From Acidimicrobiia bacterium (GTDB lineage Bacteria; Actinomycetota; Acidimicrobiia; Acidimicrobiales; AC-14), in the NCBI GenBank assembly GCA_023264995.1, contig JAHFUR010000003.1:1-64000 (forward strand): DNA of 64,000 nucleotides, read 5' to 3'. Each line of letters opens with the position of its first letter. Position 1 is the first letter of the stretch. The notes under the pieces were generated by a model. It worked only from the letters and a program-made list of their open reading frames with translations. It did not search any database and was not told the origin of the DNA. This document shows, in pieces, positions 3,730 to 9,715 of the stretch. A program made the position numbers and the translations under genes.

Positions 3730-4249
3730 ATGACTAGCTTCGCGCGAGAGACTTGTCCGTCCGTCGCCTCTCTTAGCCATGTTGCGTTTCGTGAACGGTT
3801 CACTGAAGTTAATGCGCTCTACTGGTCAAGCATACCTCTTATCCAGATACTTGGACGAGAAGCGAAACTTCATGAAGCTGACGAGTACACAGTCGAAACC
3901 CTGAGACTCACTGGCCCGGACATCCGTCGGTTTAACTGGACCCTTGGTCGCTATGAACAACACGTCAAGGCTCATGCCACGTGGACTCGTGCAAACGCCG
4001 TGTTAGCTCTCGCGAGTGCGCTCGAAACCTACACGAGTGGGGTCGTACGTGCAGCAGTTCTTTCGGATCCGATTGGGATACCAGGTTGGCCGAAACCGCT
4101 CGATGGCATAGTCCTGCTAAAGCTGCAGCGACAGCAAGTACCTGACCTTGAACCATTCGTCAAGGGAACTTGGCATGCCCGTCTGGCCGCTTACGAACGG
4201 CGTTTCGGCTCAGTGCCTACCCTAGTTCGAGACCGCGAATACCCGGTTT
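3730..4249 (+). pseudogene. HEPN-like protein, 5' part, split by an ISL3 element
   Basis: Preceded by a GAGGA ribosome binding site, this frame encodes 168 host residues (MTSFARETCPSV... to ...FGSVPTLVRD, ending at 4233) and then runs into the insertion. It is helical and clearly lower in GC than the flanking chromosome. Removing 4234-5648 joins it in frame to the 3' part, giving about 301 residues with RMARNRVAH right after the junction. That RNxxxH motif is the catalytic signature of HEPN RNases. The intact gene was probably an Abi-like defence protein. As it stands it is disrupted, and the 5' piece ends in IS-derived codons. Confidence 0.72.
4234..4249. repeat. 16-bp direct repeat, left copy
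   Basis: CGCGAATACCCGGTTT abuts the left end of the insertion and is identical to 5638-5653 at the right end. Its first 11 bases equal the outer end of the element's right terminal repeat, and only the last five (GGTTT) are host sequence present after the right end. It is therefore not a simple target duplication. Confidence 0.8.
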
Positions 4250-4280
4250 GGCTCTACGCGACCAACCGGGGAGCACGGCC
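4250..4280. repeat. ISL3 left terminal inverted repeat
   Basis: This end starts GGCTCTACGCG and ends CGGGGAGCACGGCC. It pairs with the reverse complement of 5618-5648 at 25 of 31 positions, with mismatches at positions 3, 5, 7, 13, 14 and 17 from the outer end. Confidence 0.8.
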
Positions 4281-5561
4281 TCTGATTCTCGTTGCCTGAG
4301 GAGTCTGCCATTTCACGCCGCAGTGGAGAAGCAGCCGCAGCCTGTAGTTGTCCAGGTTGCGGAACCCATGGGCGACGCGCAGCACCTTCTTGATGAGCAA
4401 GTTCACCGCTTCGGTCGGACCGTTCGATGCGCCGGTGCTGTGATGGGCGAGGATCTCCGTCCGCCACTTCGTCATCGTCTTGGCCAGGCGGTGCAGCTCG
4501 GGGACCACCGACGACTTCGCCGCGGTCACGAAGGCATCGAAACGCAGTTCGGCCACCACCATGGTCCTGGCGGCGTACATCCATCGCAGGGCCTCCTTGG
4601 CCTGCCAGGTGACGTAGAGCTCGTCGTCGGGGTCACCGGCGGCCAGGCCGGCCTCCATCCGGGCCCTGGCGACCTCGCTGAGGCGCTCGTCGGCCCGCAG
4701 CAGCAGCCGGCGGATGCCGTAGAGCGGGTCACCCTTGCGCCCACGGTGGCCGAGCTCGTCGCGTTGCACTCGTCGGCGCACGTCGTCGACGGCCAGGTTG
4801 GCCAGGCGCACCACGTGAAATGGGTCAACGACCAGGGCGGCGTGGGCCAGCTTGACGGCCACGCCGGCCAGCCAGTTCTCGGAGCGCTTCTCCAACCAGT
4901 CCTCGACCACTCGGGCGCTGCGACCAGCGACGATGTCGAGCAGACGGCCGGCGACGATGTCGACGAAGCCGGTGACGAAGCTGGTGTGTCGGGTGGCGTT
5001 GGCCCGTTGCCAAGCCGTCTCGTCCAGGCCCAAGGCGCTCACGGCGCCGATGCGGCCCGGGTCCTCGACAAGAGGCGTGCCGTAGTCGCGGACCGCGTTC
5101 ATGACCGTGGCCCAGCCGACGCCAAGGGAGCGGGCCACCTGGGCCACGGCGTGGTTGTCCCGGCCCACCCTCCGGCACGCCTCGGCCCGGGCCCGCTCGG
5201 TCAGCGACGCCCTCGGGGCGATCAGCGGGCTCGACTCGCTCCAGCCCCTGACATCGCAGTCGGCATCACCGCAGCGCCACAGGCGCTTGACCCACACGAC
5301 CACCACCGGCCGGCCCCCGCAGGACAGGTCCCGGACCTTCGTCCGTCTCCGGCCCTTGGACAGCGCCCGCCCCCCACAGACCGAACAGCCGACGATGCCG
5401 GCCCTGGTCTCCACCAGCTGGTGCAGCTCGCCGTCGACTTCGACGGCGGCCAGCAGCACGAAACCCTCCAGGCCCAGTACGGCGACCGCGCTCTCGCTAC
5501 TCTCGAATCCCACCAGGGGCCTCCTTGATTCTCGGTTGCCTTCGACAGCTCCAAGAATCAC
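4254..5561 (-). CDS. ISL3-family transposase
   Basis: A 435-residue transposase. An N-terminal zinc-ribbon-like part has CSVCGG near residue 59 and a second pair (CGDADCDVRG) near residue 97. An HTH-like segment (VARSLGVGWATVMNAV) follows, then a DDE catalytic core: LGLDETAW supplies the first Asp, VVDPFHVVRLAN the second, and NGPTEAVNLLIKK the Glu, close to the C-terminus. This order and length are typical of ISL3 (DDE_Tnp_ISL3). The frame is complete, so the element may still be active. The gene fills almost the entire element, its stop being a few bases from the left terminus. Confidence 0.93.
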   Translation of the reverse strand: MILGAVEGNRESRRPLVGFESSESAVAVLGLEGFVLLAAVEVDGELHQLVETRAGIVGCSVCGGRALSKGRRRTKVRDLSCGGRPVVVVWVKRLWRCGDADCDVRGWSESSPLIAPRASLTERARAEACRRVGRDNHAVAQVARSLGVGWATVMNAVRDYGTPLVEDPGRIGAVSALGLDETAWQRANATRHTSFVTGFVDIVAGRLLDIVAGRSARVVEDWLEKRSENWLAGVAVKLAHAALVVDPFHVVRLANLAVDDVRRRVQRDELGHRGRKGDPLYGIRRLLLRADERLSEVARARMEAGLAAGDPDDELYVTWQAKEALRWMYAARTMVVAELRFDAFVTAAKSSVVPELHRLAKTMTKWRTEILAHHSTGASNGPTEAVNLLIKKVLRVAHGFRNLDNYRLRLLLHCGVKWQTPQATRIRGRAPRLVA

Positions 5562-5617
5562 CGAGGTCCCTGGCCTCAGGGGTGGATGGTCAAGCCTGTA
5601 AGGGCCGGGTACCTCTC

Positions 5618-5648
5618 GGCCGTGCTCCCCGCTTCATCGCGAATACCC
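5618..5648. repeat. ISL3 right terminal inverted repeat
   Basis: Its reverse complement begins GGGTATTCGCG and shares the inner 14 bases CGGGGAGCACGGCC with the left terminus. Its outer 11 bases recur beyond the left end at 4234-4244. Confidence 0.78.
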
Positions 5649-5653
5649 GGTTT
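5638..5653. repeat. 16-bp direct repeat, right copy
   Basis: Identical to 4234-4249. It comprises the last 11 bases of the insertion sequence and the first 5 bases of host sequence after it. Confidence 0.8.
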
Positions 5654-6050
5654 AGAGCGCCTAAGAATGGCACGAAATCGAGTTGCGCACCGGCTCGGTG
5701 GAGCCGACGAGAATGCGCCCACTCCACTTATCATGTATGCGCGAGATTCCATGATTCAGGTCCGAGCCGACCGGCTCAAAGAGTGGTTCCAAATGGTGTC
5801 GGACGTAGCGGAGGCCATCGACGAGCACCTCACTGCGAACTTCATAGGGAGCTACGAATTCCTCGAACTCTTCCACTGGTGGCGGGCTGGACCGCGGAGA
5901 GCAGCCGACGCGGTAGGAGTGAAGGTGGTCTCCCACCGCTTGCAGGAGGACGGCTTCCATGCCCTTGTCGGCGGTCGATGGCCGGGAATGGCGCGGTGGC
6001 TGGACAAGGAGTACACACGCGAACTCCGACGCTACTACTTATCCTTGTGA
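5649..6050 (+). pseudogene. HEPN-like protein, 3' part, downstream of the ISL3 element
   Basis: The frame GLERLRMARNRVAHRLGG... continues for 133 residues to a TGA and contains RNRVAH, the R-x4-H motif of HEPN ribonucleases, with the preferred Asn after Arg. Codon 5649 is exactly in frame with codon 4231-4233 of the 5' part. The C-terminal half is helical (LKEWFQMVSDVAEAIDEHL, FLELFHWWRAG). An ATG at 5586 inside the element keeps this part open, but it is unlikely to yield a functional protein without the N-terminal half. Confidence 0.72.
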
Positions 6051-6357
6051 GTGGACATTGTGGCATTTAGTGTCGACGGCTGTGGCAGCAATCGTTCGAG
6101 CGTGCTGCCCACGGTTAGGCGATAGGTGGACGAGGCCTTTAGTCGATGCCATTTGTAATTCGTGGACCGTTGGCGTCTGCCGGCCTCCGCTTTTGTCCTA
6201 CGAGTCGCCAGATCGGTTCCCCTGTTCCGTCGCGAGTGCGGCCTAAATACCCTCTTCTCTCTCTCACGACCCGGACGGCGGCCGTCGTTGACGCTTTCCC
6301 TTGGTGACGACCTTCCAAGCCAATGCGTTGCCGGCTGGCGTCACGGCTGTTGACTGT
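6051..6357. other. Intergenic stretch between convergent genes
   Basis: About 300 bases between the split HEPN-like gene and the convergent AbiJ-like gene. I see no supported frame or strong hairpin. Confidence 0.35.
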
Positions 6358-7314
6358 TCATGCGCTTCGTCGCTCGTATGTCTCAAAGATAAAGACGGCG
6401 AGCGTCGCAGCAGCGCCGACAGCCAGTCGCGCGTGTCGAGGGCCAAGGCCGCCTCGACCAACTGCCTTTCCGTGCCCTGTGCCGTATGCATTTCTCAACT
6501 CCGCAATCCCGGCGACAATGCTGGCCAGGTTTCCGAGCACACGCCGAATCGTATCTGCTGCGGCGGCGTCTGCCTTCACGCCATCTGGCGTCAGCTGAAG
6601 TTCCTTTGCCGTCTCCTTCACTAACCGCGGCAAATCCCATTTCTTGTTGACCTCGACACCAAGGGCGATTAGGACTGTGATGCATGAAGTCTCGATCAAC
6701 TCCTTCGCCGTGCCAATGGCCAGTTCGGGGTCGGACTCGATGCTCCCTTCCATGCGGGTGATCTGTTGCGTGAGATAATCGTGGTCACCGGGTCCGGCCG
6801 CGCGCTCCACCTGTCGGAGCACGCCGGGTACTGAGAGCCGACTCCGACCAGCGAAGACGGGTCGGCCTGAAATCTGGGTTACTTCAGTAATCTCGTAACC
6901 ATCGTGCCGGAGATGGTCATTATATATTGCTACCAACTCGTCCACCTCCCTACGCTCACGCCGCAGCGCTGGGTGTACCGTCTCGGCAAGAAAGCGAAGG
7001 AAGGTTTCGTCGTCGCACCTCAAAAGACTGAATCTGTCATCATAGAAGATCCAGTCGTTCTCCCAATCATCGTTGTTCACTCTATGCTGCCACACGTCTC
7101 GATATGCAGTCGGAAATCGCTTATCCGTTGAGGGCATGTTCTCCATGTCATACAATCGGCTGAGGAAGTCCGGCTCTTCAAAGCGCCCAGACCAGTTTAT
7201 GCCACGGACAGTGAACTCGTCGGCTAGCGCGAGACGGGTGATCTCTGTGATCGGCACTCCTCCAGAATACGGGAGGAGGATCGAGGTGGTGTCACAATTC
7301 GACCCGGTTGACAT
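6358..7314 (-). CDS. AbiJ-like abortive-infection protein (AbiJ N-terminal domain plus Abi C-terminal domain)
   Basis: The N-terminal part (from ITEITRLALADEFTVRGINWSGR through NNDDWENDWIFYDDRF to QISGRPVFAGRS) matches the AbiJ-type N-terminal domain as I know it. The C-terminal part carries the Abi_C signature RNAYGTGHG, a HEPN-type R-x6-H catalytic pair, followed by ARLAVGAAATLAVFIFETY. Such proteins abort phage infection, probably by RNA cleavage. ATG 7314 gives 318 residues; GTG 7257, immediately before PITEIT, is also possible, and neither has a well-spaced ribosome binding site. GC is low. It converges on the split HEPN-like gene and is divergent from the TIGR02391-like gene. Confidence 0.85.
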   Translation of the reverse strand: MSTGSNCDTTSILLPYSGGVPITEITRLALADEFTVRGINWSGRFEEPDFLSRLYDMENMPSTDKRFPTAYRDVWQHRVNNDDWENDWIFYDDRFSLLRCDDETFLRFLAETVHPALRRERREVDELVAIYNDHLRHDGYEITEVTQISGRPVFAGRSRLSVPGVLRQVERAAGPGDHDYLTQQITRMEGSIESDPELAIGTAKELIETSCITVLIALGVEVNKKWDLPRLVKETAKELQLTPDGVKADAAAADTIRRVLGNLASIVAGIAELRNAYGTGHGKAVGRGGLGPRHARLAVGAAATLAVFIFETYERRSA

Positions 7315-8036
7315 GTGCGGCCGGCTGGAAGCGGTTTCCGCGCGCGGGACGAGGTCGTGCCATCCCATAAGTGGGGCCATCCGCAGGGGTGGTGTGGCCT
7401 GTCGACTTGGGCGCAAGCCCGGCGCCTCGATCATGTTGCTTCTCGACTTGGGCCACGCGTCCTACATAATGCTGGCTGTCGAGCGGGCGGAGCCGAACGG
7501 CTGAAGCTCGGAGAACGTCGAGGCAGCCCTTGCCCTTGTGCAGTGCTTGAACCCAGCTCACTGGCTCCATCGCACCTAGGAGGCGAAGAACAGCAGGTGG
7601 TGCGCCGAAGGAGCCGGTATTTCTACCCGAGCCCGTGCCACCAACTAAGCAAGGCCGATCGGGCGAGGTACTCAAAGAGCCATAGAAGCATGGGAGTATC
7701 GTCTGCGGTCCATCGTCCGTCGAGCGCCGAAGTCGCCAGTCCGTCAGGACGTTCCGTCCAGCCGCCGTCGTCGTGCTTCCTCGGGCTCTCGCTACACGAG
7801 CGTCGGCTGCCCGACGCTTGTACGGCGCTTGCTTCCTTTGCGCGGACGCCGGAGCACGTCAAATATCCGGATCCTCCGGCCACGGCAGGTGTACCGTCAC
7901 GTTGTCGAACGAGTGTTCGGATCTCCTCGCTGACCAAGCCGCCGAGGCTGGGAGCGAAGGGAGGCTCGGGCCAGCGTTGAGAAGGCAGTTCTGGCGTCGC
8001 TCGACGGCAAGGTGGAATTGGAAAGGAGAAACGCCC
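7315..8036. other. Divergent intergenic region in the defence island
   Basis: About 720 bases between the divergent AbiJ-like and TIGR02391-like genes. Open frames here are shadows without domains. The only clear signal is AAAGGAG at 8022-8028, serving GTG 8037. It may hold promoters or a lost gene; I cannot identify either. Confidence 0.4.
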
Positions 8037-8861
8037 GTGAGCTCTACTGCGACGGTCACCCCCTCGTCGTTTCCGGCGGCGCTCATCGAAGCCGTCGCTC
8101 GTGAGCTCGCCGAGGCTGTGATCGGAAGTCGAATCAGTCAGCTGATTGCACCGCTGAGGGTTAGCGAAACCAGCGAGGAGGCGACTGGCACGAAGTGGAA
8201 GCGGCTCTTCAACGCTGTGGTAAGGGCTCAGAATCGTCAAGGCGACGGTCGGCCGCTGATCCGACTCGTCAGCGAGGTTATGCAGCCAGTTCGCTTCGAG
8301 TCGGTCGAGCAGTTCGAAGGGCACCGGGAGCGACTCAACGATCGACTCATCCTCTTCGGCTACCAGATCCGGGATGACGGAAAAGTCACACGTACCGTAG
8401 CCGCCAGCACCCTCGCTGAGGCCAAGCAACGAGCGAACGCATTGGTTGGCGAGTTGAGCCGCCGGGATGTCCATCCAGATGTTCTAGCCTTCTGTCGGGT
8501 TGAACTGCTGCAACAGAACTACTTTCACGCAGTGCTGGAAGCAGCTAAGAGCGTTGCGGACAAGATTCGGGTCTTGAGCGGACTGAATCTTGACGGCAGC
8601 CAGTTGATGGATGCAGCGTTCTCTATGAGCGGCGGAGATCCGATCATCGGATTCAATACGCTCTGCACCCAATGGGAACGCAGCGAACATGCCGGACTAG
8701 CGATGCTATGCAAGGGATTGTTCGGTACGTTCCGGAATCCGACTGCTCACGCTCCTCGTGTTCGGTGGGCAGTCGAGCAGACGGAGGCGCTGGATATGCT
8801 GACTATCGCCTCGATGCTTCACCGTCGTCTCGACGGCGCACTCGTCAAGGCGTCCCAATGA
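8037..8861 (+). CDS. TIGR02391/Ymh-like HEPN protein
   Basis: A 274-residue protein. The C-terminal domain matches the TIGR02391 (phage-linked Ymh) family: CRVELLQQNYFHAVLEAAKSVADKIR, then LDGSQLMDAAFS, then GLAMLCKGLFGTFRNPTAHAPR, then ALDMLTIASMLHRRLD. FRNPTAH holds the R-x4-H catalytic motif of HEPN RNases. The N-terminal 100 residues (ARELAEAVIGSRISQLIAPL...) form a helical domain I cannot assign, possibly the sensor. The start is GTG 8037 with AAAGGAG 9 nt upstream. The AbiU2-like gene follows on the same strand after 160 bp, which suggests one operon. GC is lower than in the flanking chromosome. Confidence 0.8.
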   Translation: MSSTATVTPSSFPAALIEAVARELAEAVIGSRISQLIAPLRVSETSEEATGTKWKRLFNAVVRAQNRQGDGRPLIRLVSEVMQPVRFESVEQFEGHRERLNDRLILFGYQIRDDGKVTRTVAASTLAEAKQRANALVGELSRRDVHPDVLAFCRVELLQQNYFHAVLEAAKSVADKIRVLSGLNLDGSQLMDAAFSMSGGDPIIGFNTLCTQWERSEHAGLAMLCKGLFGTFRNPTAHAPRVRWAVEQTEALDMLTIASMLHRRLDGALVKASQ

Positions 8862-9021
8862 CTTGTGAGCGGTCCGTCAGGCATTCGTACGCTGAGGTGC
8901 GTGGCTCACGGCGGAACCTTGCCCAGAACACTGGACCATGCCCGCTCTTCGGTGGCGCCGCCTCACACGGGTTCCACTGCACTGATGATCGGCCCCTCCC
9001 TGGTCGCGGAGGGTCCGAGGC

Positions 9022-9699
9022 ATGAGCGCCCAGCGGCTGTTGAAATGGCAACGCTGGATCGATGACGTAGGCGAAGACCTCTTTGAACTCTGGTTCGACG
9101 AGATCAGATGGCGGCAACTGCACGAGCTGGCTCGAGACAACACATCGTTGGCGGGCGCACACGTCGACGACTTCATTGGCTGGATCGACGGTCTATATCT
9201 GCAGGCGGCCGCCGTCGGCGTCCGTCGTCAATCAGAGGTAAGAAGCGACTCGATATCGATCGGCCGTTTGTTACGCGAGGTGGCCGAAGACCCAGCCGCA
9301 TTGCTCGCCGCACCGCTATATGCAGCAGTCTGCCAGGGCCACGCCTCGATTAGCGTGGGAGTATGTCCTTCGGAACATGACATAGCTCTAGCGGCGGAGA
9401 AAGATGCCTCACTCTTACGTGACGCAGCAACTTCCATTACTAAGTACGTTAACAAGAGCATCGCCCATCGAGCGAAGCTCCGGGCGCGGGGTGAATGGCC
9501 GCTGGACTCTCCGGCCGTCGAGCACGCTACCGGACTGCTCCGTGAAATACTTGGCCGCTATACCTTGGCCCTGAAGGGTACGCTGTTCCTCTCGGGGCCG
9601 TTGCCGGAGTATGACTGGATGGAGTCGTTTACGGTGCCATGGACGACGTCTGAACAGATTATTGAGTATTTCAGGCGCGATTATGGCGAGGACGACTAG
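9022..9699 (+). CDS. AbiU2-like HEPN protein
   Basis: A 225-residue helical protein resembling the HEPN AbiU2 family: a N-terminal EDLFELWFDEIRW helix, the segment AAVGVRRQSEVRSDSISIGRLLREV seen in that family, and the core TKYVNKSIAHRAKLR. In the core the HEPN His is present but the position five residues before it is Asn, not Arg. It may thus be a degenerate nuclease or a regulatory partner. A GGAGGG site precedes ATG 9022. It follows the TIGR02391-like gene on the same strand, is low in GC, and is followed by a short inverted repeat at 9693-9715. Confidence 0.68.
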   Translation: MSAQRLLKWQRWIDDVGEDLFELWFDEIRWRQLHELARDNTSLAGAHVDDFIGWIDGLYLQAAAVGVRRQSEVRSDSISIGRLLREVAEDPAALLAAPLYAAVCQGHASISVGVCPSEHDIALAAEKDASLLRDAATSITKYVNKSIAHRAKLRARGEWPLDSPAVEHATGLLREILGRYTLALKGTLFLSGPLPEYDWMESFTVPWTTSEQIIEYFRRDYGEDD

Positions 9700-9715
9700 T
9701 TAGTTAAGCTAGTCG
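9693..9715 (+). terminator. Weak inverted repeat at the end of the HEPN gene pair
   Basis: CGACTAG and CTAGTCG (7-bp arms, 9-nt loop) overlap the stop codon of the AbiU2-like gene. There is no U-tract, so the terminator call is tentative. Confidence 0.35.

Follow-up and report, generated by a model that had tools for sequence, protein, structure and literature searches.

A foreign island of HEPN-type genes, most plausibly anti-phage, in an Acidimicrobiia bacterium

Does a group of HEPN-type genes packed within 6 kb form one defence system, or is it a collection of separate genes? The question is raised by positions 3,730 to 9,715 of a 64,000-nucleotide stretch from an Acidimicrobiia bacterium (GenBank assembly GCA_023264995.1, contig JAHFUR010000003.1, positions 1 to 64,000 of the forward strand), hereafter called the window. 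A preliminary description, made from the sequence alone, took the region for a low-GC island of four abortive-infection (Abi)/HEPN-type proteins and for a candidate uncharacterised defence locus. The reading that we favour, and consider fairly probable, is a horizontally acquired defence island with three intact, probably independent HEPN-type abortive-infection genes, together with a fourth HEPN gene, which an insertion sequence of the ISL3 family has destroyed. The intact genes are an AbiJ-type gene with the domains AbiJ_NTD3 and Abi_C (AbiJ below), a solo TIGR02391/Ymh gene (Ymh below) and an AbiU2-like gene, which belong to separate, already described families. This reading is based on a composition far from that of the chromosome, the family profiles, the catalytic residues kept in AbiJ and Ymh, the HEPN-like fold predicted for Ymh, and the defence genes that neighbour the relatives.

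Foreign composition and the AbiJ and Ymh genes

Open reading frames (ORFs) are present at or near the positions reported in the preliminary description, and the low GC content noticed there is evident. The GC contents are 0.547 and 0.601 for the two halves of the split HEPN gene, 0.571 for AbiJ, 0.590 for Ymh and 0.580 for the AbiU2-like gene, against 0.727 (standard deviation 0.027, minimum 0.676) for the reference set, the 30 called genes at 16-64 kb of the window. The difference is also clear at third codon positions (0.50-0.69 in the island genes versus 0.904, standard deviation 0.046, in the same set). None of the island genes is called by a simple gene finder whose codon-usage model was trained on the window itself. 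The island genes are foreign in composition. A search for an empty site through a flanking gene in the same family found no orthologous neighbourhood.

The AbiJ gene lies on the minus strand (6358-7314). The ORF at 6358-7434 (-) matches AbiJ_NTD3 (5.5e-56) and Abi_C (1.5e-27) in Pfam, in agreement with the earlier AbiJ-like assignment. Since the first ~40 residues of this 358-aa ORF have no counterpart in homologues, the start is probably near 7314, which gives a protein of 318 aa. The HEPN domain carries the motif RNAYGTGH, in which Arg274, Asn275 and His281 are invariant in the homologue alignment. AbiJ proteins with such N-terminal domains were already described in 2013 (PMC3710099). The window gene has both domains in the described order with the motif conserved, and differs in no notable way. 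PADLOC's own AbiJ model covers only the C-terminal part of the protein (2.6e-11). The homologues are common on plasmids, and one of them directly follows a GajA/GajB pair. Directly upstream of an AbiJ relative in another genome (L192:5192-6097) lies a gene for a protein of 301 aa, which has a hydrophobic N-terminus and the motif RNEIVH; this protein has no Pfam or PADLOC match and is possibly a membrane HEPN protein.

The Ymh gene occupies positions 8037-8861 (+) and is predicted to encode 274 aa from a GTG start, with the motif RNPTAH. The ORF at 7773-8861 matches Hypoth_Ymh (5.6e-37) in Pfam and TIGR02391 (2.9e-34), so that the TIGR02391-like assignment stands. The position of the start should be noted. 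A ribosome-binding site (ggaaaggag) precedes GTG 8037 and the homologues begin near there; this codon is therefore favoured over 7773 and is most likely the start. Arg233, Asn234 and His238 are invariant in 62 sequences, and the R-x4-6-H motif of HEPN domains is thus present. The preliminary description left the N-terminal domain unassigned. Contrarily, the protein matches the PADLOC profile PD-Lambda-3_B (PDLC03987) over positions 6-266 of 270 (1.3e-69), and this full-length match indicates an N-terminal domain that is standard for a known family. An extra N-terminal domain was also considered and rejected, since the 88 residues ahead of GTG 8037 most likely remain untranslated and those that follow are family-standard.

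PD-Lambda-3, represented in PADLOC by PD-Lambda-3_A and PD-Lambda-3_B, stems from the functional selection of PMC9519451. The window protein is related to PD-Lambda-3_B along its entire length and shares 44% identity with its counterpart in an E. coli plasmid locus, for which matches to both the A and the B profiles were obtained. In that plasmid and in Proteobacteria, however, a 159-aa A gene lies directly upstream of B, whereas it is not found in the window: tblastn with the E. coli A protein gave no match in the window, and no A profile match occurs among the island proteins scanned. PD-Lambda-3 is accordingly ruled out as the name of the system. The window Ymh also differs in its grouping, as the named members of its clade are actinobacterial. 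A close PD-Lambda-3_A homologue adjoins Ymh in eight sampled loci, which are mostly or all proteobacterial. With the AbiJ architecture described in 2013 and Ymh related to PD-Lambda-3_B, the term uncharacterised fits the locus only in part.

The structure of Ymh predicted from the 62 sequences has a predicted local distance difference test score (pLDDT) of 86.5. In VIA-align comparisons, the C-terminal part of the model best matches the HEPN domain of sacsin (Z 7.5, 109 residues, root-mean-square deviation (rmsd) 3.6), and it also aligns with the HEPN domain of AbiA (Z 5.9, 103 residues, rmsd 4.0), suggesting a HEPN-like fold. When PDB was searched by sequence with the profiles of Ymh, AbiJ and AbiU2, nothing meaningful was found.

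Neighbourhoods of the relatives

The relatives of Ymh and AbiJ are found near Gabija, PD-Lambda-3_A, a Hachiman-like helicase, DRT, restriction-modification and other Abi genes, and also in viral contigs. The closest Ymh relative (66%) is located after a complete Gabija pair, and further relatives adjoin the Hachiman-like helicase and a reverse transcriptase, UG13a. At 88 sampled Ymh loci, the neighbours match many different defence families, none of which is constant. Solo Ymh copies occur in 41 viral contigs, as well as in the temperate phages IPP34 (L208:3995-4801) and TP712 (L209:3977-4786), where the gene lies on the integrase side, near the repressor genes and before the early lytic genes. 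Such a position is a usual one for prophage-borne exclusion genes. In two actinobacterial plasmids (L014:4995-6753 and L016:4971-6525), the neighbour of Ymh, in convergent orientation, is an Abi_2-type protein with RNRVAH or RNRIAH.

The preliminary description took Ymh and the AbiU2-like gene for a pair. The two genes are indeed on the same strand, 160 bp apart and similar in GC content, and no terminator-like site was found between them, as expected if they formed a two-gene system. However, a profile search over the flanks fetched at 129 Ymh loci shows an AbiU2-like gene in 0/129, and none of the four loci that have a clear AbiU2-like relative contains Ymh, a small sample in which the relatives are only 23-24% identical, closer ones not having been found. 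The survey thus disfavours the pairing from both sides, and we regard a system of these two genes as very unlikely.

The position of AbiJ relative to Ymh should also be noted, since it bears on a different two-gene arrangement. AbiJ adjoins Ymh at 3 of the 129 Ymh loci, in every case as a tight same-strand tandem. AbiJ precedes Ymh at L057 (5033-6831; 47-bp gap) and L128 (3026-4810; 15-bp gap), and follows it at L167 (3833-5503; 6-bp gap), where Ymh is confirmed by Pfam. The order is thus found both ways, and the three loci represent two lineages, since L057 and L128 belong to one (Ymh 88% identical). A short C-terminal remnant of AbiJ also lies beside Ymh at L048 (E 7e-5). The N-terminal domain of Ymh has a weak similarity to AbiJ_NTD3 in hhalign (E 3e-4, probability 40%), which is above all 300 column shuffles, and fusions of Ymh domains to AbiJ-NTD1/2 were reported (PMC3710099). 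These observations would suit an undescribed two-protein HEPN module with related N-terminal domains, divergent in the window, in which the two proteins might control one another or work as a mixed pair. Contrarily, the tandems are few at the Ymh loci and two of them share a lineage; counted from the AbiJ side, Ymh is adjacent in 2/5 viral, 0/8 plasmid and 0/7 genome loci. Defence genes other than AbiJ are equally frequent beside Ymh, and in the window the two genes point away from each other, ~720 bp apart. We consider this module unlikely and retain the reading of separate genes.

Two further features accompany the tandem at L128. A RES-domain gene (4830-5609; Pfam 5.5e-19) lies 20 bp downstream of it, and a PD-Lambda-3_A-like fragment is present on the other strand at 8453-8782.

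The AbiU2-like gene and the HEPN gene split by ISL3

The third intact gene (9022-9699, +) encodes a divergent AbiU2-like protein of 225 aa with the motif NKSIAH. Its assignment to AbiU2 in the preliminary description holds through its relatives rather than by its own match. The window protein scores E 0.099 against Pfam HEPN_AbiU2 (12.5 bits), below the cut-off of 26.8, whereas all five members of the AbiU2-like alignment match HEPN_AbiU2, the best at 1e-6. The AH of the motif is invariant in the five members, as in the AbiU2 family, while the whole subfamily differs from that family in having no HEPN arginine. Since the HEPN histidine is kept and the arginine is missing, ribonuclease (RNase) action of this protein is doubtful. 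A pair of arginine residues (Arg68 and Arg69) is invariant across the subfamily, and might replace the missing arginine in the active site. No relatives were found in viral contigs and plasmids, and the structure prediction from the single sequence is unusable (pLDDT 38).

The two HEPN-like pieces at the left of the island are one gene of ~300 codons, RiboL-PSP-HEPN-like, split by a 1.4-kb ISL3 element. The split HEPN-like protein of the preliminary description is thereby explained as a HEPN gene, and is corrected to a single interrupted one. The N-terminal half lies at 3730-4249 (+), the element at 4250-5648 (-), and the C-terminal half, with the motif RNRVAH, at 5649-6050 (+). Once joined, the two pieces can be aligned across 99% of their length with intact proteins from plasmids (E 1e-22). 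They have no Pfam match themselves, whereas one intact homologue exceeds the Pfam cut-off for RiboL-PSP-HEPN (PF18735; 4.3e-7). As in that family, RN-x3-H is conserved (Arg188, Asn189 and His193 are invariant in an alignment of four sequences); the window copy differs from it in being split, with its halves out of frame. Read from the sequence, the N-terminal piece is without the catalytic motif and its C-terminal counterpart is in a different frame, and the gene is therefore almost certainly dead.

The element ends in 31-nt imperfect inverted repeats (4250-4280/5618-5648), and profile matches place its transposase at 4254-5561 on the minus strand. Partial copies of 87-91% elsewhere in the genome stop at the same borders. 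A simple 8-bp target duplication was not found around the element; GGTTT flanks both sides. A 16-bp direct repeat, CGCGAATACCCGGTTT, is present at 4234-4249 and 5638-5653 of the window. Its first 11 bp are the right tip of ISL3, recurring on the left flank, and GGTTT follows. This repeat may reflect insertion via a tandem or circular form.

Recombinase, insertion-sequence and toxin relics had been noticed close to the island. The ISL3 transposase and, upstream of the island, a truncated N-terminal domain of a serine recombinase (89-292, -; Pfam Resolvase, 4.6e-9) account for the first two, while the toxin relic is unconfirmed, as Pfam gives no match for the single short ORF examined (1616-1915, -). 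A HEPN gene broken by an insertion sequence, a truncated resolvase and a segment with no recognisable gene (7315-8036) would fit a decaying island whose remaining genes no longer function. Against this, AbiJ, Ymh and the AbiU2-like gene are uninterrupted, and the catalytic residues are kept in AbiJ and Ymh. Such general decay is quite unlikely in our judgement, and we continue with the reading in which three intact genes remain.

Proposed action and meaning

The claim of four Abi/HEPN-type proteins is thus borne out at the level of families by the profiles, while one of the genes is broken and the AbiU2-like protein stays below threshold and without the HEPN arginine. The island of foreign composition is most plausibly anti-phage, and relatives of Ymh and AbiJ lie beside defence genes; a single uncharacterised defence locus is mostly not supported. 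Some observations weigh against three independent HEPN genes and should be considered together. The Z-scores of the Ymh fold are below 8, within the range reachable by chance for helical proteins, and a plain Foldseek search with the Ymh model gave no significant match in PDB or BFVD, the HEPN domains being recovered by VIA-align only. The canonical HEPN arginine is missing in 5/5 members of the AbiU2-like motif alignment. Finally, AbiJ and Ymh are adjacent in the window and in tandem at three other loci, which hints that these two may not be independent.

AbiJ and Ymh are probably RNases; their families, motifs and genomic context suggest this activity and, with it, a function in phage defence. 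It has been proposed that the N-terminal domains of Abi proteins sense the phage and restrain the HEPN toxin, and that the HEPN domain kills (PMC3710099). In the island, the N-terminal domains of AbiJ and of Ymh would each restrain the C-terminal HEPN domain. A cue from the phage would release the HEPN domains, which may then cut RNA by means of their R-N-x(3 or 5)-H motif. This would halt translation, and the infected cell would yield no phage.

The island is a fairly ordinary defence island, in which the members are new and the kinds are known. Stand-alone Ymh, annotated merely as 'TIGR02391 family protein', is frequently carried by defence islands, plasmids and viral contigs. Most of these stand-alone proteins are without a PD-Lambda-3_A partner, and the modes to be considered are action alone, action with AbiJ, and action with changing partners. 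The absence of the HEPN arginine from the AbiU2-like subfamily further raises the question of whether every defence protein named after HEPN is an RNase.

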